Shown: positions 12,797 through 31,846 of the stretch, in pieces
Numbering within the stretch: the first letter of the stretch is position 1
How the letters are laid out: each line of letters opens with the position of its first letter
NCBI GenBank assembly: GCA_002694745.1
Contig: NZMY01000013.1
Coordinates: 62,001-126,000 of the forward strand
Length of the DNA: 64,000 nucleotides
Source of the DNA: Croceicoccus sp.
Lineage (GTDB): Bacteria; Pseudomonadota; Alphaproteobacteria; Sphingomonadales; Sphingomonadaceae
Direction: 5' to 3'
Position numbers and translations under genes: made by a program
Notes under the pieces: model-generated
What the model saw: only the letters and a program-made list of their open reading frames with translations
The model's database searches: none
What the model was told of the DNA's origin: nothing

Positions 12797-12807
12797 GACT
12801 GCACTTT
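12797..12807 (-). promoter_or_regulatory. Recurrent GTGCAGT operator candidate (site 1)
   Basis: On the minus strand this reads AAAGTGCAGTC, identical over 11 bases to the site at 24758-24768 and 10/11 identical to the one at 26743-26753. It sits in the divergent region between the Rieske gene at 11307 and the SDR operon at 12902. Confidence 0.5.
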
Positions 12808-12901
12808 TTACATGCCCCGGTCACCTTGCCGAAGTCATAGGTTGCCAGTCGCCCCGCTTGGCGCGATTTTCCCCGGCCTATAAGCATGAAAGAGGATGCA
12901 C

Positions 12902-13684
12902 ATGGCTAACAGGCTTGAGGGCAAGGTCTCGCTGGTGACCGGCGGCACCGGGGGCATAGGCGAAGGCGCGGTCCGGCGGCTGTCTGCAGACGGCGCGAAG
13001 GTCATCTTCACCGGTTCGCGGCAGGAAGCGGCGGACCCGATCTGCGCCGACACGGGGGCGACCTTCGTCAGCCACCGCGTGCAGGATGCGGCGGCCTGGA
13101 CAAGCCTGTCGGACCGTATCCGGCGCGATTTCGGGCGGCTGGACATCGCCTTTGCCAATGCAGGCATCGAAAAGAACGACGGCAGTATCGAAACGATCAC
13201 GCTGGAAGGCTGGCAAAGCATCCTCGACGTGAACCTGACCGGCGTGATGCTGACCGTGCAGAACGCGGTAAAGATCATGAAGGACAATCCCGGCGGCCCC
13301 ACCGGATCGGTCATCATCAACAGCTCGATGAACGCGCTTAGGGCGATGGGGAATTACATGGCCTATTCGGTGACGAAAACGGCGGTGGTCGCGCTGGGCA
13401 AGTCGGCGGCGAACTATTGCGGTCAGGCCGGATACCAGATTCGCGTCAATTCGATCCTGCCCGGCGTGGTGGAAACCGAGATGATCAAGACGATCATGAA
13501 CTCGCAGCCCGATCCTGCCGCCGCGCGCGCGATGTATGAAGGCATGTCGCCGCTGAACCGCATGGCCAAGGTCGAGGAGGTAGCCGCCCTGGTCGCCTTC
13601 CTCGGCAGCGACGAGGCGGCGTTCATGTCGGGCGGGGAATACACCATCGACGGCGCGTCGACGGCCGGAATGTCGGGCGTATGA
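12902..13684 (+). CDS. SDR-family oxidoreductase
   Basis: A 260-aa classical short-chain dehydrogenase/reductase: nucleotide-binding TGGTGGIG at residues 13-20, an NAG-type strand (FANAGIEKND), and catalytic Tyr155-x3-Lys159 in YSVTK. The ATG at 12902 was preferred to one six bases earlier because AGAGG lies at proper spacing for the later one. First of three consecutive SDR genes; its stop overlaps the next ATG by 4 bases. Expected to oxidise or reduce a secondary alcohol/ketone with NAD(P). The cofactor and substrate are not decided by what is visible. Confidence 0.93.
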   Translation: MANRLEGKVSLVTGGTGGIGEGAVRRLSADGAKVIFTGSRQEAADPICADTGATFVSHRVQDAAAWTSLSDRIRRDFGRLDIAFANAGIEKNDGSIETITLEGWQSILDVNLTGVMLTVQNAVKIMKDNPGGPTGSVIINSSMNALRAMGNYMAYSVTKTAVVALGKSAANYCGQAGYQIRVNSILPGVVETEMIKTIMNSQPDPAAARAMYEGMSPLNRMAKVEEVAALVAFLGSDEAAFMSGGEYTIDGASTAGMSGV

Positions 13685-14484
13685 GCGGCGATCTGACCGG
13701 CCGCGTGGCGCTGGTCACCGGCGCGGTGCGCGGCATCGGCCTCGCCGCGGCGCACAGCATGGCGGCAAAGGGCGCGAAGGTCTGGATCGCCGACCTGAAG
13801 GCCGAAGGCGACGATGCGGTCTCGCAGGCACTGGAATCGGTGCCGGGCGGCGCGTATCTCTCGCTCGCCGTGGCGGACGAGGCGCAGTGGCAGGCCGCCA
13901 TCGCCCGGATAGAGGATGAGGACGGCAGGCTCGACATCCTCGTCAACAATGCCGGGATCGACGGTACCGGCCGCGTGCAGGACATGACGCTCGATCTGTG
14001 GCGCAAGGTCATGTCGGTCAACAGCGACGGCGCGTTCCTGGGCACCAAGCACGCTTATGCGCTGCTGGAAAAAAGCGGCAAGGACCGCAAGGGCGGATCG
14101 TCCATCGTCAATGTCAGCTCGGTCATGGGCTTCGTCGCCTTTCCCGAGAGCAGCGCCTATTGCGCGTCCAAGGGCGCGATCCGCCAGTTCAGCAAGGCCT
14201 GCGCGGTCGAATTCGCCACCTATGGCGCGCCGATCCGGGTCAATTCGGTGCATCCCGGTTTCGTGCAGACCCCGCTGCTGGACGAAGGGTTTGACCGCAT
14301 GGTCCAACGCGGAGTCGCGGAGAAGGCCGACGACCTGAAGAAGCAGGTCAGCGAATCCACTCCCCTTGGCAGGGTGGGAACGATGCAGGAAATCGGCGAC
14401 GCCATCGCCTTCCTCGCCAGCGAGGAAGCCAGCTACATGACAGGGTCCGAAATGGTGGTCGACGGCGGCTATATTGCGCGCTGA
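13681..14484 (+). CDS. SDR-family oxidoreductase
   Basis: A 267-aa classical SDR with TGAVRGIG, NNAGIDGTG, the Ser-bearing strand VNVSSVMGF and catalytic Tyr160-x3-Lys164 (YCASK). The acidic residue after strand 2 (IADLKAEG) favours NAD over NADP. Second gene of the three-SDR operon; it starts within the stop of the previous gene (ATGA) and is followed after 16 bases by the third SDR. Confidence 0.93.
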   Translation: MSGDLTGRVALVTGAVRGIGLAAAHSMAAKGAKVWIADLKAEGDDAVSQALESVPGGAYLSLAVADEAQWQAAIARIEDEDGRLDILVNNAGIDGTGRVQDMTLDLWRKVMSVNSDGAFLGTKHAYALLEKSGKDRKGGSSIVNVSSVMGFVAFPESSAYCASKGAIRQFSKACAVEFATYGAPIRVNSVHPGFVQTPLLDEGFDRMVQRGVAEKADDLKKQVSESTPLGRVGTMQEIGDAIAFLASEEASYMTGSEMVVDGGYIAR

Positions 14485-14500
14485 TCAGGGGGAAATGACG

Positions 14501-15277
14501 ATGTTTGGATTGAACGATTGCATCGCGCTGGTCACCGGCGCGAAGGGCGGCATCGGGCGCGAGATCGTGTCCGCCATGAAGCAGGCGGGCGCGACCGTCA
14601 TCGCCACCGACCTTGGCGAGGATGACGGGAACACCGGCGCGGACCATTATTTCGCGCATGACGTGACCAGCGCCGACGACTGGCAAAGGATCGCCGATTT
14701 CATCTCGTCGGAATACGGACGGCTCGACGCGCTGGTGAACAATGCGGCGATCTCCATCGTCACGAAGTTCGAGGATACGCCGCTGGCCGAATTCCACCGG
14801 CTGAACGCGGTGAACGTCGACAGCATCATCATCGGCACGCAGGCGATGCTGCCGCTGCTGAAGGAAGGCGGCAAGGCGCGCGACAGCGGCGCATCGGTCG
14901 TCAATTTCTCTAGCGTCGGGGGCCTGCGCGGTGCAGCGTTCAACGCGGCCTATTGCACCAGCAAGGCGGCGGTGAAGATGATGTCGAAGTGCCTGGGCGC
15001 CGAATTCGCGGCGCTGGGCTACAACATCCGCGTCAATTCGGTGCATCCCGGCGGCATCGAAACCCCGATGCTGGGCTCGATCATGCAGCGCTATGTCGAT
15101 ATGGGCGCGGCCCCCTCGGTCGAGGCGGCCGAGCAGGGCACAATCGCGGCGCATCCGATCGGACGTTTGGGCCGGCCCGGCGAGATGGCGGGCGGCGTCG
15201 TGTTCCTGTGCTCACCCGCCTCCAGCTTCATGACCTGCGACGAGCTGGTGATGGACGGCGGCTTCTCGCAAATCTGA
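14501..15277 (+). CDS. SDR-family oxidoreductase
   Basis: A 258-aa classical SDR: TGAKGGIG, ATDLGEDDG (acidic, suggests NAD), VNNAAIS, and Tyr151-x3-Lys155 (YCTSK). Two neighbouring ATGs exist at 14495 and 14501; the latter is better placed behind the GGGGGAA ribosome site. Third and last gene of the SDR operon; the minus-strand NTF2-fold gene is convergent 18 bases downstream. Three tandem SDRs suggest sequential or stereochemically different alcohol oxidations on the same scaffold (inference). Confidence 0.93.
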   Translation: MFGLNDCIALVTGAKGGIGREIVSAMKQAGATVIATDLGEDDGNTGADHYFAHDVTSADDWQRIADFISSEYGRLDALVNNAAISIVTKFEDTPLAEFHRLNAVNVDSIIIGTQAMLPLLKEGGKARDSGASVVNFSSVGGLRGAAFNAAYCTSKAAVKMMSKCLGAEFAALGYNIRVNSVHPGGIETPMLGSIMQRYVDMGAAPSVEAAEQGTIAAHPIGRLGRPGEMAGGVVFLCSPASSFMTCDELVMDGGFSQI

Positions 15278-15295
15278 CCGAAGCCGCGCCGATGC

Positions 15296-15748: not shown

Positions 15749-15795
15749 AATTTATCCTCTCACGGGGTCGTTCTGTTGGCCGGTCTGGCAGGCAT

Positions 15796-18342: not shown

Positions 18343-18423
18343 TTATTGACGGATCGGCTGCATCGGCTCTACTGAAGGAAAGGATAGGGTAGCCGCAGAC
18401 AGCCGAAATCTGGCGAGGACAGC

Positions 18424-19113
18424 ATGGCAACGATAAGGCCGATCACGACGCGAAGGTCGCAGGCGCTCCACCGGATCAGGCCGGGCGGCGGGCCGGACGA
18501 CCGCACCCGCTGGCAGCAGCGCAAGAGTTCGATGACGCGCGAGGCCATTCTGGAGGCCGCGGTCGATAGTCTGGTGGACACCGGCTATGCGGGGCTTTCG
18601 ACCAATGATGTCGCGCGCCGGGCGGGCGTCTCGCGCGGTGCGATGCATCACCATTTCGCTTCGCGCGCCGATCTGGTCGAGGGGTTGATCGAGCATGTGT
18701 TCTATCACCGCATGCGCCAGTTCCTCGACGATTTCCTCGCCCGGCTAAAGCAGGCCCCGACCGGAGAAGACCCCTATCGCATGGCGATGGAGCTGCACTG
18801 GCGTTCGGTGCAAAGCCGCGAATATGGCGCATTCCTGCGCCTTGCCGTCGCGGCCCGCAGCGACGAGGCGCTGGCCGCGATCTTCACCCCCGCCGCGCGC
18901 CTCTATGACGAGATCTGGCTGGGCGAGATGCACCACGCCTTCCCCCAGTGGCGCGAGGCGCCGGAGCTGATGCGGATTGCCAATGACGTGACGCAGGCGG
19001 TCCATGCCGGACTGCAGATCAACGGCGCAACCTGGGGCGACGCACGCATGGCGGCGGTGCTGGAACGCGCGGCCATTCTGGTCGAGGATCTGGCGCGCGA
19101 GGCCCGGGGCTGA
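18424..19113 (+). CDS. TetR-family transcriptional regulator
   Basis: A 229-aa regulator. The N-terminal helix-turn-helix is clear (LSTNDVARRAGVSRGAMHHHFASRADLVEG, split here as GLSTNDVARRAGV and GAMHHHFASR), preceded by a basic tail of about 35 residues. The C-terminal ligand-binding domain is unassigned. It lies between the divergent Rieske/NTF2 operon and the SDR at 19240. The repeated 20-bp box upstream of both itself and that SDR is its likely operator, implying autoregulation (inference). Confidence 0.92.
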   Translation: MATIRPITTRRSQALHRIRPGGGPDDRTRWQQRKSSMTREAILEAAVDSLVDTGYAGLSTNDVARRAGVSRGAMHHHFASRADLVEGLIEHVFYHRMRQFLDDFLARLKQAPTGEDPYRMAMELHWRSVQSREYGAFLRLAVAARSDEALAAIFTPAARLYDEIWLGEMHHAFPQWREAPELMRIANDVTQAVHAGLQINGATWGDARMAAVLERAAILVEDLAREARG

Positions 19114-19140
19114 ACGTCGTATCTGGTAAGTCGGCACGAA

Positions 19141-19168
19141 AACCGGCCACCCTGCCTCTTATTATAAG
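19141..19168 (+). promoter_or_regulatory. 20-bp repeated box upstream of SDR (copy 2) with adjoining palindrome
   Basis: AACCGGCCACCCTGCCTCTT (19141-19160) matches the tetR-upstream copy at 18 of 20 positions. It runs into an 11-base palindrome, CTTATTATAAG (19158-19168), and an AAAGGATAG that also recurs before tetR (18380-18387). TetR-type operators are usually palindromic, so this is the stronger of the two sites. Confidence 0.6.
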
Positions 19169-19239
19169 AAAGGATAGTTGCGCGCGGGTCAGCGGGGCGA
19201 GCACTCTGGGCGAGAAGAAACACATCGTGGGAGAGAACC

Positions 19240-19929
19240 ATGGCCAATGTCTATATCACCGGTGCCGGGCGAGGCATCGGCCTTTCACTGGCGCAAAAGC
19301 ACGCCGAGGCAGGCGACCGCGTCTTCGCGCTGGTGCGCGATCCCGCGAAATCGGATGAACTTTCGCAGCTTGCGAACGGATCGGGCGGCAAAGTGACCAT
19401 CCACAAGATGGACGCAGGCGATCTGGCGTCTATCCCCGATGCGGCAGCGGCCACCGGCAACGACAGCGTCGACGTGCTCTACAACGTCGCAGGCAATACC
19501 GGCCCGATGAACAACGAGCTTGAGACAGAGATCGACTGGGACGGCTGGGGCAGCGCCTTCGACGTGATGGTCAAGGGCCCGCTCGCCGTGCTCAAGGCAT
19601 TCCTGCCGCGCATGCACGAGGGCAGCAAGGTGGTGAACTTCTCAAGCCAGCTGGCTGCCAGCACCTGGCCGATGGGCGGCTACTACGCCTATGGCGCCGC
19701 CAAGGCCGCGCTTAACCGGCTGATGCGTTCGGTGGCCATCGACCTGAAGGACAAGGGCATCATCGTCGTCACCCTGCATCCCGGCTGGGTGCAGACCGAC
19801 ATGGGCGGCCCCGATGCCGAGATCACCCCAGAGGAAAGCGCCAGCGGCATTCACGCGCTGACGCAGAAGCTGACGATCGGCGACAGCGGCGACTTCTTCA
19901 AGTGGAACGGCGAACACCATCCCTGGTGA
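19240..19929 (+). CDS. SDR-family oxidoreductase
   Basis: A 229-aa short SDR: TGAGRGIG at the N-terminus, then VLYNVAGNTGPM in place of the usual NNAG, and catalytic Tyr151-x3-Lys155 (YGAAK). The Arg after strand 2 (LVRDPAKS) suggests NADP. The short length and C-terminal HPGWVQTDMGG recall the CsgA/sniffer-like SDR subgroup. A GGGAGAGAACC ribosome site precedes it. Followed after 37 bases by an NTF2-fold gene on the same strand; probably under the TetR regulator just upstream. Confidence 0.92.
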   Translation: MANVYITGAGRGIGLSLAQKHAEAGDRVFALVRDPAKSDELSQLANGSGGKVTIHKMDAGDLASIPDAAAATGNDSVDVLYNVAGNTGPMNNELETEIDWDGWGSAFDVMVKGPLAVLKAFLPRMHEGSKVVNFSSQLAASTWPMGGYYAYGAAKAALNRLMRSVAIDLKDKGIIVVTLHPGWVQTDMGGPDAEITPEESASGIHALTQKLTIGDSGDFFKWNGEHHPW

Positions 19930-19966
19930 TCCGCCCCCCGGGAACATCCACGTAGAGGAGAGAGGC

Positions 19967-20826: not shown

Positions 20827-22014
20827 TCACATCACCGGTTCGGGCGCGGAGGGATCCTCGGCCATGTACCAGTTCAGCCATTCGTGGAAATACTGGTTCC
20901 CGCGCTCGTTCTTGCCGAAGATCAGCTCTTCATGCGCGCCCGATTCCAGGCCCTTCTGGATCTCCATGCCGATGACGTAATCTTCCTCATACGTGACGTC
21001 GCGGAAGAAATTGACCATCTGCTCCAGCTTTTCCGCCTCTTCATCGTCCTTGGGCGCTTCGCGGCACAGATAGTTCAGAACGGTGCGGTTCTTGTCGGGC
21101 GTCGGCCCGGGGAACAGCTGCGCGACCTGCGTGATCTCGGGCGCGACGAAGATCGAGACATTGGGGAACAGGATCCGCACGAAGTCATATCCGTAATTCT
21201 CGCGCGTGCCCCATTTTTCGCGCGGCACGTCCTTCAGCAGGTTGCTGATTTCATGCTGCGGAAAGCTGATCCGCATCGACGGGCCATAGCCCTCGTAATG
21301 CATCGTGTTCGACGGCGTGCGCGGAAAGATCGTCTCGGGATGCAGCGACTGGAAGTGATAGCCTTCGAGATAGCCGTCGAACGCGATCTTCCAGTTCGCG
21401 CCATGGATTTCGCGGCTGCCGATGAAGTGCCAGTCGGCAAAGCCCAGATCCGCAAAATCATTGAGATAGCCGCGGAAATAGCCATCGAGATCGATCGATC
21501 CGTTCTGGTCGAGCGACACGAAGATCAGCCCATGCCGCTCTTCGCACGGCAGTTCCTTCAGCCCGCGTGCGGACTTGTCGACATCGCCAAAGCTCTTCTG
21601 GTCGTTGATGCCGATCAGCCGGCCGTCGCGGCCATAGGTCCAGGCGTGATACTTGCAGATGAAGCGCGAGCAATTGCCGTGCCCTTCCTCCGCCACCGGC
21701 GCGCCGCGATGCGAGCATACGTTCAGGAACGCCCGCACCGTACCGTCCTTGTCGCGGGTAATCAGGACCGGCATGCCGACCGCGTCCATCGCCTTGTAAT
21801 CGCCGGGGTTGGGCATTTCGGCGGTGAAGGCCAGCATCAAGGGCAGCTTCTTGAAGATCCGGTCGATCTCCTGCCGGTACACCTTTTCGTCGCAATAGGA
21901 TGCGGCGGGCACGGTCATGGTGTCCTTGCCCTGGAATGTGGTCTTGTTCTCGACATAGCCGATCATGGTTTCGGCCAGTTCGCCCAGATGTCCGATGCGT
22001 GCTGCGCGGTCCAT
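20827..22014 (-). CDS. Rieske non-haem iron oxygenase, alpha subunit
   Basis: A 395-aa protein, shorter than the other three oxygenases of the window. Rieske ligands are Cys100-x-His102 and Cys120-x2-His123 (CSHRG, CKYHAW); the catalytic-iron motif is FDGYLEGYHFQSLHPE. The start at 22014 was chosen over a TTG/ATG further out because GGGAGAG directly precedes it. Followed by the EthD-like gene. Divergent from the acyl-CoA ligase at 22253. Expected to hydroxylate or O-demethylate an unknown ring substrate. Confidence 0.94.
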   Translation of the reverse strand: MDRAARIGHLGELAETMIGYVENKTTFQGKDTMTVPAASYCDEKVYRQEIDRIFKKLPLMLAFTAEMPNPGDYKAMDAVGMPVLITRDKDGTVRAFLNVCSHRGAPVAEEGHGNCSRFICKYHAWTYGRDGRLIGINDQKSFGDVDKSARGLKELPCEERHGLIFVSLDQNGSIDLDGYFRGYLNDFADLGFADWHFIGSREIHGANWKIAFDGYLEGYHFQSLHPETIFPRTPSNTMHYEGYGPSMRISFPQHEISNLLKDVPREKWGTRENYGYDFVRILFPNVSIFVAPEITQVAQLFPGPTPDKNRTVLNYLCREAPKDDEEAEKLEQMVNFFRDVTYEEDYVIGMEIQKGLESGAHEELIFGKNERGNQYFHEWLNWYMAEDPSAPEPVM

Positions 22015-22181
22015 CGCTCTCTCCCGATGTGTTCTGCATGGAATCCGCACCTTGGGGATTCCCGGTTGGGACGAAAACTGCCCCTTATCGACGGCAGAAA
22101 CAACCTGACGGGAATGAGAGGTTGTGCCTCAGGTAAAAGCGCACGCTGGCGCCTTGCGGCCGAGATCCTGTTATTGCCGGG

Positions 22182-22193
22182 ACCCTATTATTT
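22182..22193 (+). promoter_or_regulatory. Shared box ACCCTATTATTT (copy 1)
   Basis: This 12-mer begins 71 bases before the acyl-CoA ligase start. The identical 12-mer begins 70 bases before the acyl-CoA dehydrogenase start at 45677. TATTAT within it could be a -10 element. A GGGA precedes it in both places. Confidence 0.5.
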
Positions 22194-22252
22194 CCGCCAA
22201 TGGCCGCCGCCGCCCATCCGCGCGAGAACGAGGCAGGGAAAGGAGCAAATTC

Positions 22253-23884
22253 ATGGACCGAGTGGAAGCGCCGTGGCGCTGGCTGGAGCGATTGCCGCGC
22301 CATCTTGCGGATTTCGCAGACCAGTGGCGGGGGAAGACCATCGCCGATCTCGCTCGGGAACGGGTGGACGAAGATCCCGGTTTCGTCGCACTGGTCGACG
22401 ACCGCCGCGACCTGACGCGCCGCGAATGGCTGGAGGAGGCGCAGGCACTGGCCAATGCATTGCACGCGCGCGGCTTTGCGGCGGGCGACGTGATCGCATT
22501 CCAGACACCCAATTGGCACGAGGCGGCGATCATCGACCTTGCCTGCGCCATCGCCGGACTGGTGCTCTCCCCCATCGTGCCGATCTACCGCGATGCCGAG
22601 GTGACGATGATGCTGGGCGACTGCCGTGCGCGCGGCCTGTTCACCTGCACGCAGTTCCGCCGCTATGACTTTGCCGAAATGGCGGACAGGATCCGCGGCG
22701 ACCTGCCCGACCTGACCCATGTCTTCACCGTGCGCGGCGACGGGCCGGACGATTTTGCCGCGCTGGTTCAGGAAGGCCGCACCCTTCCCGCATACCGGCC
22801 CGAAGTCGATGCGACCGAAGTCAAGCTGGTGCTCTATACCTCTGGCACCACCGGGCGGCCCAAGGGCGTTCTGCACAGCCACAACACGCTCGAGAATATC
22901 GTGCGCAAAAGCTATGAACACTGGCGGATCGGCGAGGGCGACACGCTGATCATGCCCTCGCCCGTCACCCATGTGTCGGGCTATGCCAACGGGCTGGAAT
23001 CGCCGCTGATCATGGGCACGCGCGTCGTGCTGATGGAAAGCTGGAACGCCGAAGAGGCCGTCCGCCTGATCGAGAAATACGAGGTGGCGGGCACCGTCGC
23101 GGCGACCCCGTTCCTTGTCGAGCTGGCCAATGCCGCGCGGCAGGCGGGCACGCGGCTGCCGTCGATGCGCATGTTCGCCTGCGGGGGCGCGGCGGTGCCG
23201 CCCGACCTCATCCCCTCGGCCAATTCGGCGTTCGACAATCTGCAGGCGTTCCGCGTCTTTGGCGCGAGCGAGGTTCCGTTGGTCAGTTTCGGCTGGCCCG
23301 ACGATCCGGAACTGGCAGCGCGCACCGACGGCGAGGTGGTCGATTACGAAGTGAAGTTGATCGACGACGCCGGCGAGCCGGTCGCGCCTGGCACGGAGGG
23401 AGAGATCCTCTCACGCGGGCCGTCGATGATGCTGGGCTATGCGGACAAGGCGCAAAGCAGCGCCGCCTTCGATGCAGAGGGCTATTTCAGGACCGGCGAC
23501 CTGGGCGTGCTGTCGCCCGAGGGCGCGATTACCATCACCGGCCGCAAGAAGGACCTGATCATCCGCGGCGGCGAGAACATCAGCGCGGTCGAGATCGAGG
23601 ACGTGCTGCGCACCCATCCGCAAGTCCGCGACGCCAGCGTGGTCGCCATGCCGCACGAACGGCTGGGTGAAGGCGTGTGCGCCTATGTCATCAGCGAGGA
23701 GGACGCGCCCGACACCGCCGCGCTGTGCCGGCATGTGCAGGAAAGCGGGCTGGCAAAGCAGAAAACGCCCGAACGCTTCGTCTTCGTTCAGGATTTCCCC
23801 CGCACCGCATCGGGCAAGATCCGCAAGGACCGCCTCCGCGCCGAAGTCGCCGCCATGATCGAGCAGGAGAAAGCGAGCGCCTGA
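22253..23884 (+). CDS. AMP-dependent acyl-CoA synthetase/ligase
   Basis: A 543-aa adenylate-forming enzyme. The P-loop-like motif LYTSGTTGRPKG spans residues 194-205; the hinge region is GRKKDLIIRGGENISAVEIE, and catalytic Lys522 is in TASGKIRKDRL. It activates a carboxylic acid to its CoA thioester through an acyl-AMP. The start at 22253 follows AGGAGC; an upstream extension lacks support. In this island it would feed the acyl-CoA dehydrogenases and thiolase-like protein. Divergent from a Rieske oxygenase gene. The acyl group is unknown (long-chain, cyclic or side-chain acid). Confidence 0.93.
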   Translation: MDRVEAPWRWLERLPRHLADFADQWRGKTIADLARERVDEDPGFVALVDDRRDLTRREWLEEAQALANALHARGFAAGDVIAFQTPNWHEAAIIDLACAIAGLVLSPIVPIYRDAEVTMMLGDCRARGLFTCTQFRRYDFAEMADRIRGDLPDLTHVFTVRGDGPDDFAALVQEGRTLPAYRPEVDATEVKLVLYTSGTTGRPKGVLHSHNTLENIVRKSYEHWRIGEGDTLIMPSPVTHVSGYANGLESPLIMGTRVVLMESWNAEEAVRLIEKYEVAGTVAATPFLVELANAARQAGTRLPSMRMFACGGAAVPPDLIPSANSAFDNLQAFRVFGASEVPLVSFGWPDDPELAARTDGEVVDYEVKLIDDAGEPVAPGTEGEILSRGPSMMLGYADKAQSSAAFDAEGYFRTGDLGVLSPEGAITITGRKKDLIIRGGENISAVEIEDVLRTHPQVRDASVVAMPHERLGEGVCAYVISEEDAPDTAALCRHVQESGLAKQKTPERFVFVQDFPRTASGKIRKDRLRAEVAAMIEQEKASA

Positions 23885-23890
23885 GCGCCC

Positions 23891-24694
23891 TTACCCCTTG
23901 GCGGCGGCGGCGATCGAGGCCTCCATCTGCTCGGGCGTGGGATTGCCGCGCAGGCACAGCCCGCCGTTCACCTGCAGGTTCTCGCCCGTCATGAAACATT
24001 CGTCGCTGGCCAGGAACACGGCGGCGGCGGCGATATCCTCGCTGGTGCCGTATCGGCCCAGCGGATAGCCGGGTAGGAAGCTTTCCAGCAGGCCGGGCAC
24101 TTCTCCCGCCTCCGCGGTCATCGGCGTTTCGGTCAGGCCGGGCGAAATCGAATTGGCGCGAATGCCGTCGTGCCCGAACTCGTTCGCAACGCAGCGGATG
24201 ATGTGATCGGTCGCCGCCTTGGTGCCCATATAGGCGGCGTGGTTCCACAGCATGATCTTTGCCGTCGCGCTGGAAATCTGGATGATCGATCCCCCCTGGC
24301 CCCCATGCGAACGCGCCATCTTGCGCAGCAGTGCCTGATAGAGCTGAAACGGTCCGACCAGCTGCAGAGCCGTCATCTGCTCCAGCTGCTCACGCGTGTT
24401 GTCGAGGAACGGGGTCAACAGGCCCCAACCGGTGGCGTTGACCGCGATGTCGATGCCGCCCATCGCCGCATGCGCATCCTCCACCAAGGCGTTCACGCTG
24501 TCTTCCTGCGTCAGATCGCAGGCGATCGCCGTCGCGCCGTTTTCCTTGGCGAAATCGTCCAGCACCGCCTGCTTGCGCCCCGCGACCGTGACCGCCGCGC
24601 CTTCGGATAGGAAGCGCCGCGCCATCATCTGCCCCATATTGCCCTCGCTGCTGGCGCCCACGATCAGGGCGCGCTTGCCTTTGAGTCTTGTCAT
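23891..24694 (-). CDS. SDR-family oxidoreductase
   Basis: A 267-aa SDR with a variant nucleotide loop GASSEGNMGQMMA resembling enoyl-reductase-like/atypical SDRs, VNATGWGLL in place of NNAG, and catalytic Tyr155-x3-Lys159 (YMGTK). The C-terminus has the classical FMTGENLQVNGG. The start at 24694 was chosen because GGGAGAC precedes it; a GTG/ATG 15 bases further out is possible. Convergent with the ligase gene (6-base gap) and divergent from the SDR at 24862. Confidence 0.9.
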   Translation of the reverse strand: MTRLKGKRALIVGASSEGNMGQMMARRFLSEGAAVTVAGRKQAVLDDFAKENGATAIACDLTQEDSVNALVEDAHAAMGGIDIAVNATGWGLLTPFLDNTREQLEQMTALQLVGPFQLYQALLRKMARSHGGQGGSIIQISSATAKIMLWNHAAYMGTKAATDHIIRCVANEFGHDGIRANSISPGLTETPMTAEAGEVPGLLESFLPGYPLGRYGTSEDIAAAAVFLASDECFMTGENLQVNGGLCLRGNPTPEQMEASIAAAAKG

Positions 24695-24749
24695 CCGTGC
24701 GTCTCCCATGTGTTTGCGTCATGAGTATCACCGGGGGGCGACGCGCAGC

Positions 24750-24768
24750 ACTGCGCAAAAGTGCAGTC
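24750..24768 (+). promoter_or_regulatory. Recurrent GTGCAGT operator candidate with dyad symmetry (site 2)
   Basis: ACTGCGC-AAAA-GTGCAGT (24750-24767) is an inverted repeat with one mismatch per arm, in the divergent region between two SDR genes. Its right half, AAAGTGCAGTC (24758-24768), is shared with sites at 12797 and 26743. This is the most symmetrical of the four copies. Confidence 0.55.
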
Positions 24769-24861
24769 GATACGTCGCCGCAGCGCCTCTAGTGTAAGAC
24801 TGCATCGAAATCCGCGCGCAGCATGCGCGGAACGGATCACACCACGGGAAAGGATTGTCAC

Positions 24862-25623
24862 ATGGATCTGGGCCTCAAGGGCAGGAAAGCCATCCTCATT
24901 GGCGCGAACGGCGGCATCGGCCGCAAGGTCTCCAAGACACTCGCGGCCGAGGGTTGCCATGTCGCGATCTGCGGACGCACGCAGGACAAGGTCGACACCG
25001 TGGTGGGCGAGCTTGAGCCCAGCGGCGTGACCGTTCACGCCAAGACGCTGGACGTTACCGATGCGGGCGCGGTCCCCGCCTTCGTGAAGGAAGCCGCGGA
25101 CAAGCTTGGCGGCTGCGACATCTTCATCAGCTTCACCTCCGCCAATCCGGGCGAGGATACTGACGATGGCTGGGAGACGATCCTGAAAACCGATATCCTG
25201 CCGATGCGCCGCGGGATCGAGGCGGCCATGCCCTTCCTCGAGAAATCGGACGCCGCGTCGATCATCTGCATGAGCTCGACCGGCGCGGTCGAGGAATTCA
25301 TGGGCGTGCAGCCGTACAACTCGATGAAGGCCGCGGTGATGAACTATGCCGCCGCGCTGTCGCAGAACCTTGCAGGCAAGGGCATCCGCGCCAATTGCAT
25401 CACCCCCGGCCCCGTCATGTGCGAGGATGGGCCATGGGCCTATATCCGCGACAACATGAAGGAATTCTACGAGGATACCGTGTCGAAGATCCCGATGGGC
25501 CGCCTGACCGACGGGGACGAGCTGGCCCGCACCATCGCCTTCGTCGCATCGCCAACGTGCAAGGCAATGACGGGCGCGAATATCGTGGTCGACGGCGGCT
25601 ATACCAAGCGCGTGCAGTTCTGA
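24862..25623 (+). CDS. SDR-family oxidoreductase
   Basis: A 253-aa SDR: GANGGIG, CGRTQDKVD (Arg, NADP-type), SFTSANPGED in place of NNAG, the strand IICMSSTGAVEEF and Tyr152-x3-Lys156 (YNSMK). The start at 24862 has GGGAAAGGA upstream. A single-gene unit that ends at a strong hairpin (25632-25656) shared with the convergent medium-chain reductase. Confidence 0.92.
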   Translation: MDLGLKGRKAILIGANGGIGRKVSKTLAAEGCHVAICGRTQDKVDTVVGELEPSGVTVHAKTLDVTDAGAVPAFVKEAADKLGGCDIFISFTSANPGEDTDDGWETILKTDILPMRRGIEAAMPFLEKSDAASIICMSSTGAVEEFMGVQPYNSMKAAVMNYAAALSQNLAGKGIRANCITPGPVMCEDGPWAYIRDNMKEFYEDTVSKIPMGRLTDGDELARTIAFVASPTCKAMTGANIVVDGGYTKRVQF

Positions 25624-25631
25624 ACCGCGAA

Positions 25632-25656: not shown

Positions 25657-25666
25657 CACCGCTGAA

Positions 25667-26680
25667 TCAGCCGATCTTCAGGATCAGCTTGCCGGTATTC
25701 TGGCCAGAGAACAGCCGCATGAATGCGTCATAGCTGTTCTCAATGCCGTGCTGCACATCCTCGTCAATGCGCATGCGGCCCTGCTGCATCCATTCGGCGA
25801 TCTGCGCGCCCCCTTCGGCGAAGCGCGGGGCATAGTCCATCACCAGAAACCCGTGCAGCGTCGCTTCCTTGACGATGACCTGCCAAAGGTTCTTCAGCCC
25901 GTGCGGCTCCACCGCGTTATATTCGCTGATCAGTCCGCACAGCACGACGCGCGCCTTCTTGGCCAGTTCGAAGACCTCGGCCTCGAATATGTCGCCGCCG
26001 ACATTCTCGAACACGATGTCGATGCCATCGGGGGTTGCCTGCGCCAGTTCGGCGCGCAGCGCGTCGATGTCTTTGCCGCGGTAGTCGATGGCGACGTCAT
26101 AGCCGTAATCCTCCACCAGCCGGCGGCATTTTTCCGGGCCGCCCGCGATGCCGATGGTGCGGCATCCCATGATGCGGCCGATCTGCCCCACCACCGAACC
26201 GACCGCGCCCGCAGCAGCGCTGACGCACAAGGTCTCGCCCGCCCTAGGCTTGGCGACCTCCATCAGGCCGAAATAGGCGGTCAGCCCGACCGCACCCATG
26301 GCCGACAGGAAACGCGAGGGGCTGTCGACAAGCGACACATCGATCGGCGCGGTGAAATGGCCGGGCGTGACCGCGGTGTAATCCTCGATCGCGTTCAGCT
26401 CCATCGCCCAGCTTCCCACCGGATAGTCGGGATTGTCGCTGGCATGCACCTTGCCCACGCAGGTCGCGCGCACCGCATCGCCCAGCGGAATCGGCGGCAT
26501 GTAGCTTTCCTCGTCCGACATCCCCCCGCGCTGCGCCGGGTCGAGCGAGCAATAGACATTGCGCATCACGAAGCCTCCGGGCGGCGGAGCGGGAATATCC
26601 TCTTCCACCAGTTCGAAATCTTCGGGCACCGGGTCCCCTTCGGGACGGCGGCGCAGGATGAAGCGGCGGTTCTCGGGCAT
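25667..26680 (-). CDS. NADP-dependent medium-chain reductase (zinc-independent MDR, prostaglandin/alkenal reductase-like)
   Basis: A 337-aa medium-chain dehydrogenase/reductase without zinc ligands. The Rossmann segment ETLCVSAAAGAVGSVVGQIG and the GIAGGPEKC loop are typical of the NADP-dependent 2-alkenal/prostaglandin reductase (CurA-like) group, which reduces activated C=C bonds. A paralogue at 30790-31812 shares SAAAGAxGS, GIAGGPEKC and the C-terminal GKNTGK/GQNTGK motif. It is divergent from a TonB receptor, exactly like its paralogue. Confidence 0.9.
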   Translation of the reverse strand: MPENRRFILRRRPEGDPVPEDFELVEEDIPAPPPGGFVMRNVYCSLDPAQRGGMSDEESYMPPIPLGDAVRATCVGKVHASDNPDYPVGSWAMELNAIEDYTAVTPGHFTAPIDVSLVDSPSRFLSAMGAVGLTAYFGLMEVAKPRAGETLCVSAAAGAVGSVVGQIGRIMGCRTIGIAGGPEKCRRLVEDYGYDVAIDYRGKDIDALRAELAQATPDGIDIVFENVGGDIFEAEVFELAKKARVVLCGLISEYNAVEPHGLKNLWQVIVKEATLHGFLVMDYAPRFAEGGAQIAEWMQQGRMRIDEDVQHGIENSYDAFMRLFSGQNTGKLILKIG

Positions 26681-26742
26681 GATCTCTCCTATCTGCTTTT
26701 GCCTGCATGGTCGGCAGATGACCCCGGTTTGGCACCTGATAC

Positions 26743-26753
26743 AAAGTGCAGTG
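26743..26753 (+). promoter_or_regulatory. Recurrent GTGCAGT operator candidate (site 3)
   Basis: AAAGTGCAGTG matches the 24758 site at 10 of 11 positions. It lies between the divergent reductase and TonB receptor genes, about 80 bases before the receptor start. Confidence 0.5.
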
Positions 26754-26832
26754 ACGCAAAGCCCGCAGAAAAGGGAAAAGACGCGTGTAAGCGTGGCAGC
26801 GCAAAAGCGCCGGCGACATCAAGGGGAGAAGG

Positions 26833-29136
26833 ATGATGGCAACAGGTTTCACACGTGCGTTCGCGGCAGCCGCGCTCGCAGGTTCGGCAATGATTTCCGT
26901 GCAAGCCGCCCACGCGCAGGTCACGAACGAGGATACCGACCTCGTCACCGATCCCGAAGGGCCCACCCCGGCCGCCGGCCCGGTCGAGGGCAGCACCGAC
27001 CCCAATGCCATCATCGTGACCGCCCGCCGCCGCGAGGAATCGCTGCAGGACACGCCCGTCGCCATCACCGCGATCAATGCCGCGATGCTGGAGAACAAGA
27101 ACTCGCTCAATATCGGCGACCTTCAGGGCGAAGCGCCCAACCTGTTGATCACCCAGCAGAATTCGGGCGCGGCGGCGGCGAACCTGTCGATCCGCGGCCT
27201 GACCTATGCCGATATCGAAAAATCGCAGGAGCCCACCGTGGGCGTCGTTATCGACGGCGTGTTCATCGGCACCAATACCGGCCAGCTGCTGGACTTCTTC
27301 GACATCGAACAGATCGAGGTGCTGCGCGGGCCGCAGGGCACGCTGTTCGGGCGCAACACCATCGGCGGCGTCATCAACATCCGCCGCACCCGCCCCACCT
27401 TCGAACCCGGCATCAAGGCCGAGGCGTCCTATGCCAAGTTCGGCACCTATAGCGCGCGCGCCGTGGTCAATTTCGGCATTGGCGACATGATCGGGGTCAA
27501 GCCGTTCTATTTCTACAACGAAACCGACGGCTTCCACCGCGACGGCCAGACCGGCGAGCGTCGCGGCGGATCGAAGAACCAGAATTTCGGCGTCGCCATC
27601 GCGGTCGAGCCCAACGACGATTTCGACGTCCTGCTGACGGTGGAGAAGCAGAGGCAGGAATTCGAGGTCGTCAACTCGGTCATCACCAACGATACCGAGC
27701 TGTTCTGCGGCTTTGCCCCGCCAGAACTTTGCAACCGCAACACCACCGACGACCTGTATACCGTCTTTGGACAGCCGGCGGGCGGCGTCTATGAAGCGCC
27801 CGCGATCACCGCGGAAGCGAATTGGGACACGGGTCCGATCCTGCTGACCTCGGTCACGGGCCTGCGCAAGTCGAGCGAGGACCAGACGCAGGACTTCGAT
27901 TCGACCTATACCGACCTTTATTACACCCGCCGTATCCAGAGCTATAAGCAGTTCAGCCAGGAAATTCGCGCGGCGGGCGATCTGTTCGACGGCTTCGACT
28001 ATGTCGTCGGCGGCTTCTACTTCGATTCTGAATTCGACCTGACCCAGTACACGCGCGTCTTCGGCTTCTCGCCCGGTGTGGATCCCATCGATTTCGACCC
28101 CAATCCGCAAAACGTCATCGGCAAAACCAAGAGCTATGCGGTGTTCGGCGACTTCAACTGGAATTTCGCCGAGAACCTGCGCCTGTCGTTCGGCGGCCGG
28201 TGGACGCGCGACGAAAAAAGCCTGCGCAACAGCTTTGCCCAGCTTGGCCTGATCGGCCAGGGCGATGACGATTTCAGCAAGTTCACCCCCAAGGTCGGGA
28301 TCGACTGGCGGCCCAACCCCGACATGATGTTCTATGCCAGCTGGTCGCGCGGCTATCGTTCGGGCGGCTTCAGCCCGCGTGCCGCCACGGCCGAAACCGC
28401 ATCGACCCCGTTCGGTCCCGAAACCGTCGACAGCTATGAAGTCGGCTCGAAGCTCGACCTGATGAACGGCATGCTGCAGTTCAACGTCGCAGGCTTCATC
28501 TCAAAATACGACGATCTGCAGCAGAACACGACGATCCCCGGCGGCCCCACGGGCAACCAGACGATCACCAGCAATGTCGGTTCCGCCACGATCAAGGGTA
28601 TCGAGGCAGACGCCAGCTTCCGCCCTGTCACCGGGCTGCGCTTCAACGCGACGCTGGGCCTGCTGGACGGCGAGTTCGACGATTTCATCGCGGGCAATAT
28701 CCTGAACGGCGTCATCCTGCCGTTCGACTATTCGGCCAACGACCCGATCTACAGCCCCGACATCACCGCATCCATCGGCGCGGAATACAGCCAGCCGGTC
28801 AGCTTCGGCGAGCTGGTGGGCACGGTCGGCTATCGCTTCATCGACAAGTACGACCAGCAGATCTCGCTTGGCCCGCTAACCGGCGATTTGGTCAACGGTC
28901 CGGTGATCGTGAACGGCAACGATCCGCGCGTGCGCACCGATCAGCAGAACCTGCTCGACGCATCGCTGACCGCCAATTTCGATATCGGCGATGCCGAGGC
29001 CTATGTCACCGCGTTCGGCCGCAACCTGCTGGACGACCGGGGCACGACGGCGGCCTTCACCGTGGCGGGGCTGTTCTCCTTCGCATCGGCGCGCGAGCCG
29101 CGCACCTACGGCCTGACGCTGGGCGTGCGCTATTAA
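26833..29136 (+). CDS. TonB-dependent outer-membrane receptor
   Basis: A 767-aa protein with a signal peptide (cleavage expected after AHA, about residue 28), a short linker, a TonB-box-like IIVTARRREESLQD, the plug domain (VGVVIDGVFIGTNTG, VLRGPQGTLFGRNTIGG) and a beta-barrel ending in the aromatic C-terminus TLGVRY. The motifs are of the sphingomonad catabolic-cluster receptor type rather than clearly siderophore-type. It probably imports the island's hydrophobic substrate across the outer membrane (inference). The ribosome site GGGGAGAAGG precedes tandem ATGs. Followed 44 bases later by an SDR. Confidence 0.95.
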   Translation: MMATGFTRAFAAAALAGSAMISVQAAHAQVTNEDTDLVTDPEGPTPAAGPVEGSTDPNAIIVTARRREESLQDTPVAITAINAAMLENKNSLNIGDLQGEAPNLLITQQNSGAAAANLSIRGLTYADIEKSQEPTVGVVIDGVFIGTNTGQLLDFFDIEQIEVLRGPQGTLFGRNTIGGVINIRRTRPTFEPGIKAEASYAKFGTYSARAVVNFGIGDMIGVKPFYFYNETDGFHRDGQTGERRGGSKNQNFGVAIAVEPNDDFDVLLTVEKQRQEFEVVNSVITNDTELFCGFAPPELCNRNTTDDLYTVFGQPAGGVYEAPAITAEANWDTGPILLTSVTGLRKSSEDQTQDFDSTYTDLYYTRRIQSYKQFSQEIRAAGDLFDGFDYVVGGFYFDSEFDLTQYTRVFGFSPGVDPIDFDPNPQNVIGKTKSYAVFGDFNWNFAENLRLSFGGRWTRDEKSLRNSFAQLGLIGQGDDDFSKFTPKVGIDWRPNPDMMFYASWSRGYRSGGFSPRAATAETASTPFGPETVDSYEVGSKLDLMNGMLQFNVAGFISKYDDLQQNTTIPGGPTGNQTITSNVGSATIKGIEADASFRPVTGLRFNATLGLLDGEFDDFIAGNILNGVILPFDYSANDPIYSPDITASIGAEYSQPVSFGELVGTVGYRFIDKYDQQISLGPLTGDLVNGPVIVNGNDPRVRTDQQNLLDASLTANFDIGDAEAYVTAFGRNLLDDRGTTAAFTVAGLFSFASAREPRTYGLTLGVRY

Positions 29137-29180
29137 GCGCCGCCCTCGCCAACGACACATCACGCAAGGACTATCGCAAT

Positions 29181-29945
29181 ATGGATAGGCTCAAGGGAAA
29201 GATCGCCCTGGTGACGGGCGGGGCCTCGATGCCCGGATTGGGCAGCGCGACCGCCATTCGCTTTGCCGAGGAAGGCGCGCATGTCGTCATCACGGACCTG
29301 TCGCAGGACGGCGCGCAGAAGGTGGTCGACATCATCACCGAAAAGGGCGGATCGGCCGAGGCGATGAAGCATGACGTCGCCAATACCGACGAATGGGACG
29401 ATGTGTTCGGCCATATCGAGGAGCAGCACGGCGGGCTGGACGTGATCGTCAACAATGCCGGCATCGCGATCCTGCGGCCCATCGCCGACTATACGGTCGA
29501 GGAATGGAACAAGCAGTGCGACATCAACCTCAACAGCGTGTTCCACGGCACCCAGCGCGCGGTAAAGCTGATGCGCCGGATCGGGCGCGGCGGGTCGATC
29601 ATCAATATCTCGTCCATCGTCGGGCAGGTCGGGGTGGCGAACACCGCCGCCTATGCCGCGGCCAAGGGCGGGGTGCGGATCTTCTCCAAGACGGTCGCGC
29701 TGGAATGCGCGGCGGACAATATCCGGGTGAACACCGTGCACCCCGGCATGATCATGACCAACATGCAAAAGATCGCGCTGGAGGATAATCCCGAGATCTA
29801 CGAACAGCTCGTCGCCAGCATCCCGATGGGCCGTTTTGGCGAGCCGGAAGACATCGCCAATATGAACCTGTTTCTCGCCAGCGACGAAAGCAACTATTGC
29901 ACCGGCGTCGAATTCACCGTCGATGGCGGAATGATCACGCAATAA
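29181..29945 (+). CDS. SDR-family oxidoreductase
   Basis: A 254-aa classical SDR: GGASMPGLGSATA (nucleotide loop lengthened by a few residues), ITDLSQDG (acidic, NAD-type), VNNAGIAIL, NISSIVGQVG and Tyr158-x3-Lys162 (YAAAK). It closely follows the TonB receptor and is probably co-transcribed with it. Convergent with the second ThuA-like gene. Confidence 0.93.
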   Translation: MDRLKGKIALVTGGASMPGLGSATAIRFAEEGAHVVITDLSQDGAQKVVDIITEKGGSAEAMKHDVANTDEWDDVFGHIEEQHGGLDVIVNNAGIAILRPIADYTVEEWNKQCDINLNSVFHGTQRAVKLMRRIGRGGSIINISSIVGQVGVANTAAYAAAKGGVRIFSKTVALECAADNIRVNTVHPGMIMTNMQKIALEDNPEIYEQLVASIPMGRFGEPEDIANMNLFLASDESNYCTGVEFTVDGGMITQ

Positions 29946-29972
29946 ACGGCCGGAGCGCGCCGCGCGCCCGAT

Positions 29973-30779
29973 CTAGTCGGGCAGGCGGCGCGCGGTCCAG
30001 CGGATCGCGTTTTCGACCAGGCGGCGGTAATGCGGGTCCTCATAGGCGCCCGCCCCGTCGCCCGGTTGCAGATAGACAAGGCGGCTGCGCCCCGCTTCCC
30101 TGGCCCAGCCGACAAGGTTCGTACCGGGCGCATGGTCCCATCCCTCGCGCGAATACATCTCGCCGCGCACCGCGTGCTGCGCCGAGAAGAAATGATCGCG
30201 CGTGAAGACCGCATCGGAATGCAGCAGCGGCGTCACATCGTCCGCAAAGATCTCGGCCAGATAGGGCTCGTCGGTCAGGGTAAAGCTTTCGGGCAGGCCC
30301 TGCGTTACCGGATGACCCTGCACCGGAGTCAGCCGCTGCGTCACCTCATGCGCATAACCGCTGTCCAGCGCCTCTCGCCCCCGCACCTTGCCGGGATGAT
30401 AGAGGAACCGCCCGCCCAGCAGCTCGGCATAGAAATCCCATGTCGGCCACCCAGCAAGCGCGTGATGCAGCGCGACGATGCCCTTCCCCTCCTCCAGCAG
30501 CGCGGGCAGGCCTTCGACCAGCGCCTTGGGCGGATCGACATAGGCGGGTGGATGATCGGGCGCATCGAAATCGAGCCCCGGCATGTCGTACAGCACCAAT
30601 GCATCGAAATCGCGCATCCCCTCGGGGTTCATCAGCAGGGCGGCGGCGGGCTGATCGACCATGGTGACGGCGATGCCCTCCATCCCCTCGAACATGGCGG
30701 CAAAGCCGTTGCGATCGAAGGGATGGCCGCGCACCGCGACAAGGCATTGCAGCTCGCTGCGATAGTCGATCGTGGGCAT
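29973..30779 (-). CDS. ThuA-like domain protein
   Basis: A 268-aa protein of the ThuA/glutamine-amidotransferase-like fold: FDALVLYDMPGLDF, EEGKGIVALHHALAGWPTWD (a conserved family segment), VQGHPVTQGLPESFTLTDEPY and GAGAYEDPHYRRLVENAIRW. It is the second gene after the medium-chain reductase at 30790 (10-base gap). Only weakly similar by eye to the other ThuA-like protein at 10513-11307. Two ThuA-like proteins in one oxidative catabolic island is unusual. Confidence 0.88.
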   Translation of the reverse strand: MPTIDYRSELQCLVAVRGHPFDRNGFAAMFEGMEGIAVTMVDQPAAALLMNPEGMRDFDALVLYDMPGLDFDAPDHPPAYVDPPKALVEGLPALLEEGKGIVALHHALAGWPTWDFYAELLGGRFLYHPGKVRGREALDSGYAHEVTQRLTPVQGHPVTQGLPESFTLTDEPYLAEIFADDVTPLLHSDAVFTRDHFFSAQHAVRGEMYSREGWDHAPGTNLVGWAREAGRSRLVYLQPGDGAGAYEDPHYRRLVENAIRWTARRLPD

Positions 30780-30789
30780 GCAGCCTGCC

Positions 30790-31812
30790 CTAGCTGCCCG
30801 CTCCCGACCGCAGGTCGACCAGCACCTTGCCGGTGTTCTTGCCCGTCAGCATCCGGCCATAGGCCACCAGCGTGTTCTCCAGACCCTCGGTAACGTCGAA
30901 GGGCAGCGTGATCTTCCCTTCCTTGTACCAGCGCTTCATGGTCTCATAATATTCGGGGCCGCGTTCGGGGACGTCGGGCAGCAGGAACCCCTCGATCCGC
31001 AGGCGGCGCATCAGCACCTGATCGTAATTGCTGGGCCCCGGCGTGCCTTCGGGGGCGGCGTAATTGGCGACCATGCCGCACACCGCGATCCGCCCGTGCA
31101 GCGCCATGTTCTGCAGCACCGCGTCCAGGATCGCGCCGCCGACATTCTCGAAATAGGCGTCGATCCCGCCTTCCAGCTTCGCCAGCTCGGCCGCGACATC
31201 GCTGTTCTTGTAATCGATGCATTGCTGCGCGCCGAGGTTCTCCACCACATGCGCGCATTTCTCAGGCCCGCCCGCGATGCCCACGACCTTCGCGCCCAGA
31301 TTGCGCCCGATCTGGCAGGCAAGGCTGCCCGTCGCGCCCGCCGCGGCGGAGACGACCAGCGTCTCGCCTTCCTTGATGCCGAGGATGTCCTTCACGCCAT
31401 AAAGCGCGGTCCAGCCATTGAGGCCCAGCGCGCCGAAATGCTGCCGCTCATCGTCGATGTCGTCGTCCAGCAGCACGGCCCACGCATCGTCCGGCCTCAC
31501 GGTCGAATAATCCGCCCACTGGCCGAAGATCCTGATCAATGATCCTTCGGGAAACCGCGCGTCCCGGCTTTCGCTGATGCGTCCCAGCGCCTGCCCCGAC
31601 ATCTTGGAACCCAGCGGAATCGGCGGCTGATACCCGTCCTCGCGCGCGTTCATCCACATGCGCGTGCCCGCATCCATCGATAGAAAGCGCGACCGGACGC
31701 GGATCTCGCCATCCTCCAGCGGCGCGAGTTCCTCTTCATGCATGCTGAGCGCGGAGGAGAAATCCTCGCCCTCGGGCCGCGCGTCGAGCTGCCAGTACCG
31801 GTTCTTTGTCAT
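30790..31812 (-). CDS. NADP-dependent medium-chain reductase (zinc-independent MDR)
   Basis: A 340-aa paralogue of the reductase at 25667. Seen: EGETLVVSAAAGATGSLACQ, GIAGGPEKCAH, YFENVGGAILDAVL and the C-terminal TGKNTGKVLVDL. Predicted to reduce an alpha,beta-unsaturated carbonyl or related C=C with NADPH. It leads a two-gene operon with the ThuA-like gene and is divergent from the second TonB receptor, repeating the arrangement at 25667-29136. Confidence 0.9.
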   Translation of the reverse strand: MTKNRYWQLDARPEGEDFSSALSMHEEELAPLEDGEIRVRSRFLSMDAGTRMWMNAREDGYQPPIPLGSKMSGQALGRISESRDARFPEGSLIRIFGQWADYSTVRPDDAWAVLLDDDIDDERQHFGALGLNGWTALYGVKDILGIKEGETLVVSAAAGATGSLACQIGRNLGAKVVGIAGGPEKCAHVVENLGAQQCIDYKNSDVAAELAKLEGGIDAYFENVGGAILDAVLQNMALHGRIAVCGMVANYAAPEGTPGPSNYDQVLMRRLRIEGFLLPDVPERGPEYYETMKRWYKEGKITLPFDVTEGLENTLVAYGRMLTGKNTGKVLVDLRSGAGS

Positions 31813-31838
31813 CTGATGATCCTTTCCCTTGGCCGCGA

Positions 31839-31846
31839 GACTGCAC
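31839..31846 (-). promoter_or_regulatory. Recurrent GTGCAGTC operator candidate (site 4)
   Basis: GTGCAGTC on the minus strand, in the divergent reductase/TonB receptor region, shares the 8-base core of sites 1 and 2 but not the AAA flank. The same region holds a dyad, CCTGTC-N6-GTCAGG (31885-31902), about 75-95 bases before the receptor start. Confidence 0.4.

Follow-up and report, generated by a model that had tools for sequence, protein, structure and literature searches.

Do the separate operons of a catabolic island answer to one regulator and, if so, through which site and which protein? We addressed this question in a 64,000-nucleotide stretch of a Croceicoccus sp. genome (NCBI GenBank assembly GCA_002694745.1, contig NZMY01000013.1, positions 62,001 to 126,000 of the forward strand), which we call the window. 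It carries genes for Rieske oxygenases, short-chain dehydrogenases/reductases (SDRs), other reductases, TonB receptors and acyl-CoA dehydrogenases, several of them in divergent pairs. The original prediction had seen the heptamer GTGCAGT in four divergent promoter regions and had supposed that a common regulator, perhaps one of the local TetR or LuxR proteins, acts there. We found that the unit shared by these promoters is a 20-bp dyad with a CT-N12-AG core, present at eight island promoters, among them the promoter of a luxR-type gene. The dyad is of the lux-box form, a CT-N12-AG core being typical of the lux-box family. As judged from sequence comparisons, an autoregulated LuxR-type regulator encoded at 44741-45511 probably controls the Rieske/SDR/TonB/acyl-CoA island through these dyads.

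A conserved dyad in eight promoters

The dyads and the regulator gene lie in the window as follows.

12823-12842: dyad ACCTTGCCGAAGTCATAGGT, 13.4 bits, between a Rieske oxygenase gene (Rieske1, 11307-12740, minus strand) and an SDR gene (SDR1, about 12896-13684, plus strand)
18370-18389: dyad TACTGAAGGAAAGGATAGGG, upstream of the TetR gene (18424-19113, plus strand)
22103-22122: dyad ACCTGACGGGAATGAGAGGT, between a Rieske oxygenase gene (Rieske3, 20827-22050, minus strand) and an AMP-ligase gene (22124-23884, plus strand, listed coordinates; translation probably begins at a more internal position)
24749-24768: dyad CACTGCGCAAAAGTGCAGTC, between two SDR genes (SDR5, 23891-24709, minus strand; SDR6, 24823-25623, plus strand), enclosing the predicted copy at 24758-24768
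26734-26753: dyad ACCTGATACAAAGTGCAGTG, between a reductase gene (ADH1, 25667-26680, minus strand) and a TonB receptor gene (TonB1, 26833-29136, plus strand), enclosing the predicted copy at 26743-26753
31866-31885: dyad ACCTATCCTTACCGTTAGGC, 16.2 bits, the top score in the window, between a reductase gene (ADH2, 30790-31812, minus strand) and a TonB receptor gene (TonB2, listed at 31921-34488, plus strand, start uncertain)
31884-31903: dyad GCCTGTCCTTCTTGTCAGGG, the second of the ADH2/TonB2 promoter and overlapping the first, 13.3 bits
35017-35036: dyad CGCTATTAAAACCGATAGCT, between a ferredoxin gene (34603-34953, minus strand) and an acyl-CoA dehydrogenase gene (ACAD1, 35399-36706, plus strand)
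45608-45627: dyad CCCTATTATTTTGCAGAGCC (read as GGCTCTGCAAAATAATAGGG on the minus strand), in the intergenic region that separates luxR from a divergent acyl-CoA dehydrogenase gene, a putative autoregulatory site
44741-45511, minus strand: LuxR-family regulator P0001 (256 aa), with a GerE helix-turn-helix (HTH) at residues 192-245 and a predicted autoinducer-domain-like fold

In its best form the dyad reads ACCTG-N10-CAGGT. Of 13 other genomes of the genus, ten gave the orthologous cluster (G001-G005, G007-G010 and G012, the last in pieces), and we compared the promoters with theirs; the cluster was not seen in the stretch fetched from G013. The Rieske1/SDR1 dyad is kept in all 11 Croceicoccus promoters, our own included, and the Rieske3/ligase dyad in 10/10 species (as ACCTGCCCAAGGTGACAGGT in G001). 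Among the species that have the respective gene pair, the dyad was found in 7/7 for SDR5/SDR6 in the fetched stretches (a count that leaves out G003 and G010, which lack an adjacent SDR6), in 5/5 for ADH1/TonB1 (ACCTGTGAAAAATGGCAGGT in G008) and in 6/6 for ADH2/TonB2, where C. marinus (G004) also has the equivalent of the second dyad. Upstream of the TetR gene the half-sites are identical in 9/9 species, the ferredoxin/ACAD1 dyad is kept in all four species examined, and the luxR promoter dyad is kept in all nine close Croceicoccus orthologs. Identity within the box exceeds the promoter average in 8/8 promoters. We also observed that the Rieske1 ortholog of one genome (G010:C1:2315990-2317403) is in two pieces, owing to a frameshift or a sequencing error, and that its promoter box is intact. 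At another locus (L129, G001:C12), a tandem pair of luxR-type boxes, 18 bp apart, lies upstream of luxR.

The four sequences of the original prediction are exactly where it placed them, on the strands it gave and each between divergent genes, and the near-palindrome claimed at 24750-24767 holds at 24749-24768. A motif built from orthologous intergenic regions, as had been proposed, gave the conserved 20-bp dyad in all four promoters within Croceicoccus, and the real set of promoters is larger, since eight island promoters carry it. The copies starting at 24761 and 26746 are the right half of the conserved dyad (nCTn-N10-nAGn); the former is exact only in G000 and G005, the latter only in G000. 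The other two stand apart from the conserved dyads of their promoters, which are about 20 bp away.

12798-12804, minus strand: GTGCAGT copy outside the conserved dyad (12823-12842), common only to G004 (C. marinus) among 11 genomes
31840-31846, minus strand: GTGCAGT copy outside the conserved dyads (nearest at 31866-31885), common only to G004 among 6 genomes

Absence from the same promoters of related strains had been named in advance as what would tell against the motif. These two copies are indeed missing from the corresponding promoters of relatives other than C. marinus, and we rejected them as conserved sites.

The heptamer is not enriched in the window, which holds six copies against 5.2 ± 1.8 in shuffled sequences (39 of 100 shuffles had at least six), and neither is the 11-mer with up to two mismatches (15 versus 14.8). 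In the window, a count in coding versus intergenic DNA of the kind that had been suggested gave a skewed placement: four of the six heptamers are intergenic, where 11.5% of the bases lie (binomial p = 0.002, post hoc). Exact AAAGTGCAGTS occurs four times in the 4.02-Mb genome, three of them in the window, and its reversed control once; with one mismatch the 11-mer is no commoner genome-wide than the control (36 versus 57). The fourth exact copy follows an apparent tRNA 3' end and is without the dyad by an earlier version of our matrix. We rejected GTGCAGT as a functional unit: its frequency is that of chance, and the conserved element is a degenerate 20-bp dyad of which it makes up one half. 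The original prediction had nevertheless caught a genuine regulatory signal in part, whose right unit is the dyad and whose likely regulator is LuxR. The idea of one regulon across divergent promoters keeps its shared site and loses GTGCAGT as the motif and two of the four sites; of the two proteins named on equal terms, the local LuxR is favoured and TetR is disfavoured.

Spacing, matrix scores and distant relatives

We then investigated the spacing of the half-sites, with crude gene calls (GC by codon position) on which the division into intergenic and coding DNA depends. In the intergenic DNA of 11 genomes, [AC]CT-Nk-AG[GT] occurs 84 times at k = 12 versus 21-43 times at the 16 other spacings (4-20), and in coding DNA 267 times at k = 12 versus 72-276 times elsewhere. 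ACCT-Nk-AGGT occurs 15 times at k = 12 versus 0-3 times at other spacings in the cluster stretches of the 11 genomes. The N12 spacing is specific within the genus, all these counts coming from related species and hence not being independent.

A leave-one-promoter-out matrix, applied to the window sequences alone, gave Fisher p = 3e-8 over the eight promoters, a value in which some circularity remains because the pattern-based choice of training sites followed inspection of the alignments. The held-out p values were 0.012 for Rieske3, 0.010 for ADH1, 0.002 for ADH2, 0.022 for TetR, 0.014 for ferredoxin and 0.006 for luxR. Species by species, p <= 0.05 was reached in 5/9 for the TetR promoter and in 5/7 for SDR5/SDR6. 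High scores cluster in the island: hits of at least 10 bits number 10 in 4.8 kb of intergenic DNA and 4 in 35.5 kb of coding DNA, against 1 in 12.3 kb and 6 in 83 kb, respectively, in four control stretches (the rest of the window, both flanks and C15), the matrix having been trained on island sites. Two further candidates come from the matrix scan alone.

44649-44668: candidate dyad TGCTGCCCAAATTGCTAGGC, 11.6 bits, upstream of a thiolase/acyl-CoA dehydrogenase/E1/E2 operon
48232-48251: candidate dyad CCCTGTCCTTTAGCCCAGTA, 12.4 bits, downstream of a Rieske-like gene

A dyad ACCTGTGGCATTATGCAGGG at 3606-3625, between a SnoaL-like gene and a hybrid kinase gene, scores 10.3 bits and may enlarge the promoter set.

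Beyond the genus, we kept the best 80 of 329 LuxR relatives in named genomes and cut their loci to 10 kb on each side, some of these loci being on short contigs. Nearly all of the best 80 are labelled as sphingomonads, the exceptions being L141 (Proteobacteria) and L214 (Elioraea). At >=50% identity, Rieske1 is present in 54/80 loci and the thiolase in 63/80. The Rieske1/SDR1 element was found in all 52 loci outside Croceicoccus where the region could be excised, 44 times with N12 spacing, and one aligned dyad is common to eight of the nine loci that have Rieske3 and the ligase. In G096 the box remains with SDR1 despite a different Rieske partner gene. With Rieske1/SDR1 excluded, the loose pattern outside the genus peaks at N12 (184 versus 55-129, on noisy gene calls). 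The SDR5/SDR6 box at 24749 and the luxR box of the window both fit CTnnGCAAAn5AG, which ties the best of the predicted sites to the luxR promoter. Outside the genus (75 loci, one of them too short), this pattern is found in 54 of 74 luxR promoters, mostly 80-100 bp before the start, and a looser form in six more. It occurs 57 times in total on one strand of 1.37 Mb of luxR loci, that is, three times besides the promoters. Some Rieske1/SDR1 boxes have N13 spacing with both half-sites intact (L149, L152, L162, L171, L173, L190, L198 and L211), which is odd for a rigid dyad.

The LuxR-family regulator and its rivals

P0001 is a member of the LuxR (GerE) superfamily (PF00196, E 1e-13, residues 192-245), and most positions of its HTH are invariant in 41 homologs. 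Its match to the autoinducer domain PF03472 is weak (14 bits, E 0.036) and below the cut-off of 23; among the three PF03472 matches in the genome, all under the cut-off, it ranks first at 14.3 bits. As a query against its own genome, P0001 gave a single match at E <= 1e-10. Its ortholog in N. aromaticivorans DSM 12444 is SARO_RS18620. A structure model from the 41 homologs has a mean pLDDT of 78. Its best PDB matches in Foldseek are TraR, QscR, SdiA and CviR (2q0o, 6cbq, 4lgw; E 5e-8 to 8e-7), and the LasR ligand domain alone aligns with a TM that reaches 0.63 when normalised to target length (E about 0.005). The modelled N-terminal alpha/beta fold thus appears to be of the autoinducer-domain type.

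A PF00765 profile search for LuxI in the same genome gave no match at E <= 1, and P0001 can therefore be called a LuxR solo, a LuxR protein with no cognate LuxI. The conserved aspartate of the acyl-homoserine lactone (AHL) pocket, D70 of TraR, contacts the AHL amide. P0001 has a serine at the aligned position. S82-P83 is invariant in 41/41 homologs, and S82 was aligned with the DP-motif aspartate of two distant Rhizobium LuxR proteins (not TraR itself). Since the serine is found in all 41 homologs, we do not class P0001 as an AHL receptor; its residues suggest that the pocket has diverged and that the ligand is probably not an acyl-homoserine lactone.

We propose that P0001 binds the dyad as a dimer, usually at one box per divergent promoter. 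It would activate at least eight island promoters, serving Rieske oxygenases, SDRs, reductases, two TonB receptors, a CoA ligase and acyl-CoA dehydrogenases, and its own promoter would be a further target. As P0001 has no LuxI partner in this genome and a seemingly diverged pocket, it probably responds to a compound of the pathway, either a substrate or an intermediate, and not to an AHL. The -10-like hexamer TANNNT is most frequent with its start 31 nt away from the box centre, a distance that would put the box near -43; this signal is weak (weight 1.12 versus at most 0.52) and, like the box results given below for G019, G173, G038, G096 and G106, comes from the earlier matrix, two of whose TetR-promoter training sites had incorrect outer bases. 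A position near -43 is usual for LuxR activators and suggests activation.

The luxR gene is present in 11/11 genomes of the genus with the cluster and in 0/3 without it. G013, which has neither, contains a 76% Rieske1 homolog in a different setting. At the family level, 13 of the 14 genomes that match Rieske1 at E <= 1e-200 have luxR, versus 36 of 185 others, a comparison that ignores phylogeny and counts G010, with its split Rieske1, among the others.

The alternative that survives best, which we nonetheless regard as unlikely, concerns another protein of the island.

18424-19113, plus strand: TetR-family regulator (PF00440)

This protein could be a repressor that sits on the dyads and is released by a pathway compound. 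TetR operators are likewise dyads, and the TetR gene sits within the cluster in each of the 10 Croceicoccus genomes with the stretch covered. One dyad immediately precedes this gene, and the HTH of the protein shows good conservation. HTH conservation does not separate the two candidates, both being conserved. Two genomes (G019 and G173) have LuxR and the cluster, yet no TetR match was found in them at E <= 1e-35. TetR is disfavoured because the boxes persist there, at Rieske1/SDR1 (14.8 bits) and at Rieske3/ligase (10.1 bits). The recurrence of the box in luxR promoters and the lux-box form of the dyad also speak against TetR. In G001, the TetR stop (at the counterpart of window 19113-19240) is followed by a terminator-like inverted repeat, AAAACAGG/CCTGTTTT, and in several species a stretch resembling GATAGTTG is found again ahead of the gene that follows TetR.

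Only slightly less plausible than TetR is that the boxes serve a regulator whose gene lies elsewhere, such as another response regulator of the LuxR type. GerE-type HTHs occur in response regulators too, the sensor kinases at 3830-9586 are without a linked output regulator, and G038 has a box with luxR not detected; on the other side, the box is found in luxR promoters and luxR co-occurs with the cluster. The two sensors at 3830-9586 are adjacent, one being a hybrid histidine kinase (GAF and three receiver domains) and the other an HWE kinase (two receiver stretches). That the repeats reflect chance or ordinary core-promoter conservation, with no common regulator, is very improbable: the random frequency of the heptamer, its two unconserved copies out of four and the unenriched loose dyad genome-wide would agree with this, and the N12 peak, the held-out matrix, the clustering and the conservation past the genus contradict it.

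Several results weigh against control of the island by P0001. Within the genus, neither of the two diverged luxR orthologs (G003 and G010; LuxR 53-54% identical) has the promoter dyad, and the held-out p values in the window reach only 0.060 (Rieske1/SDR1) and 0.106 (SDR5/SDR6). Farther away, eight of the 52 Rieske1/SDR1 boxes have N13 spacing, and 14 of the 74 luxR promoters are without the pattern even in its looser form. The luxR promoter has no box in G106 and a weak one in G096, G019 and G173 (7.4 bits in the latter two). With Rieske1/SDR1 excluded, ACCT/AGGT (4 versus 0-6) and CTG/CAG (63 versus 35-83) show no N12 peak outside the genus, and no consistent box was found upstream of Rieske2 in 21 loci. 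In G038, an assembly of 380 contigs, Rieske1 and a box of 14.2 bits are kept, yet luxR gave no match there at E <= 1e-60. Genome-wide, the looser dyad shows no enrichment (266 matches versus 321 for the reversed control), and the box alone therefore does not define a genome-wide regulon. As for the protein, the two other PF03472 matches in the genome, both short, come close to P0001 in score (13.7 and 13.2 bits), and the fold model is modest, with a pLDDT of 78 and a TM of at most 0.5 to full-length chains.

If P0001 is the regulator, a broader and more tentative reading is that a receptor lineage of the quorum-sensing type in the Sphingomonadales has given up cell-cell signalling and become a nutrient sensor. 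An autoregulated LuxR solo, its pocket remodelled, would read a hydrophobic substrate or CoA intermediate, possibly a polycyclic, steroid- or terpenoid-like compound, and drive a lux-box regulon of about ten promoters. On the same tentative reading, this regulon would stay together despite gene shuffling or a luxR gene away from the cluster.

Significance and known LuxR-type systems

These results provide a predicted operator, regulator and set of target operons for a degradation cluster present in many sphingomonad genomes. The box can be used to locate further pathway genes, and a ligand biosensor built on the regulator could identify the substrate. If the proposal is true, a quorum-sensing-type protein serves here as a catabolic switch. 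An NCBIfam search of 10 proteins for a clue to the substrate gave no family above the cut-off among the matches listed, and a sequence comparison of the Rieske protein with the PDB gave distant matches. A 55% LuxR homolog is found in a related acyl-CoA/thiolase/E1-E2 cluster on a plasmid of Sphingobium sp. TomTYG65 (L227), a strain whose sequence, according to the available excerpt, stems from work on bacteria that degrade tomato saponins; for the substrate of our cluster this is only a hint. A description of the regulon was not found in the full-text literature on LuxR and sphingomonad catabolism, whose coverage leaves most subscription journals outside.

The system resembles the LuxR-TraR-LasR family in its 20-bp site, the length given for the lux box in the accessible part of PMC4444344, and in the CT-N12-AG core. 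P0001 shares the GerE HTH and matches QscR, SdiA, TraR and CviR in sequence and fold. It differs from the family in that no LuxI was found, the PF03472 match is weak, a serine (S82) aligns with the aspartate and the predicted targets are catabolic operons.

A proline iminopeptidase neighbour is typical of the OryR-type group, and two matches of P0001 at about 30% identity (H13 and H18) adjoin such genes. The plant-associated LuxR solos of this type, as presented in the available sections of PMC4288048, are likewise unpaired and have altered ligand-pocket residues. Their neighbours differ from those of P0001, which stands with a catabolic promoter set of several operons. The survey was screened with PF03472, according to the same sections, and since P0001 fails this profile, its family may have escaped it.

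Among catabolic regulators, TeiR/TesR of Comamonas testosteroni are LuxR-type steroid regulators (PMC8700777, PMC6895838). By their description alone, in the portions of these papers at hand, they are similar to what we propose for P0001, a LuxR-type regulator required to induce a degradation cluster. The LuxR protein EGO55_13855 of the C. tardaugens progesterone cluster is uncharacterised and up-regulated by the substrate, according to the accessible text of PMC12239570, which reports Baeyer-Villiger and LLM enzymes as its neighbours, different from those of P0001. By that description alone, the two are alike as a sphingomonad LuxR adjoining TetR in a catabolic cluster.

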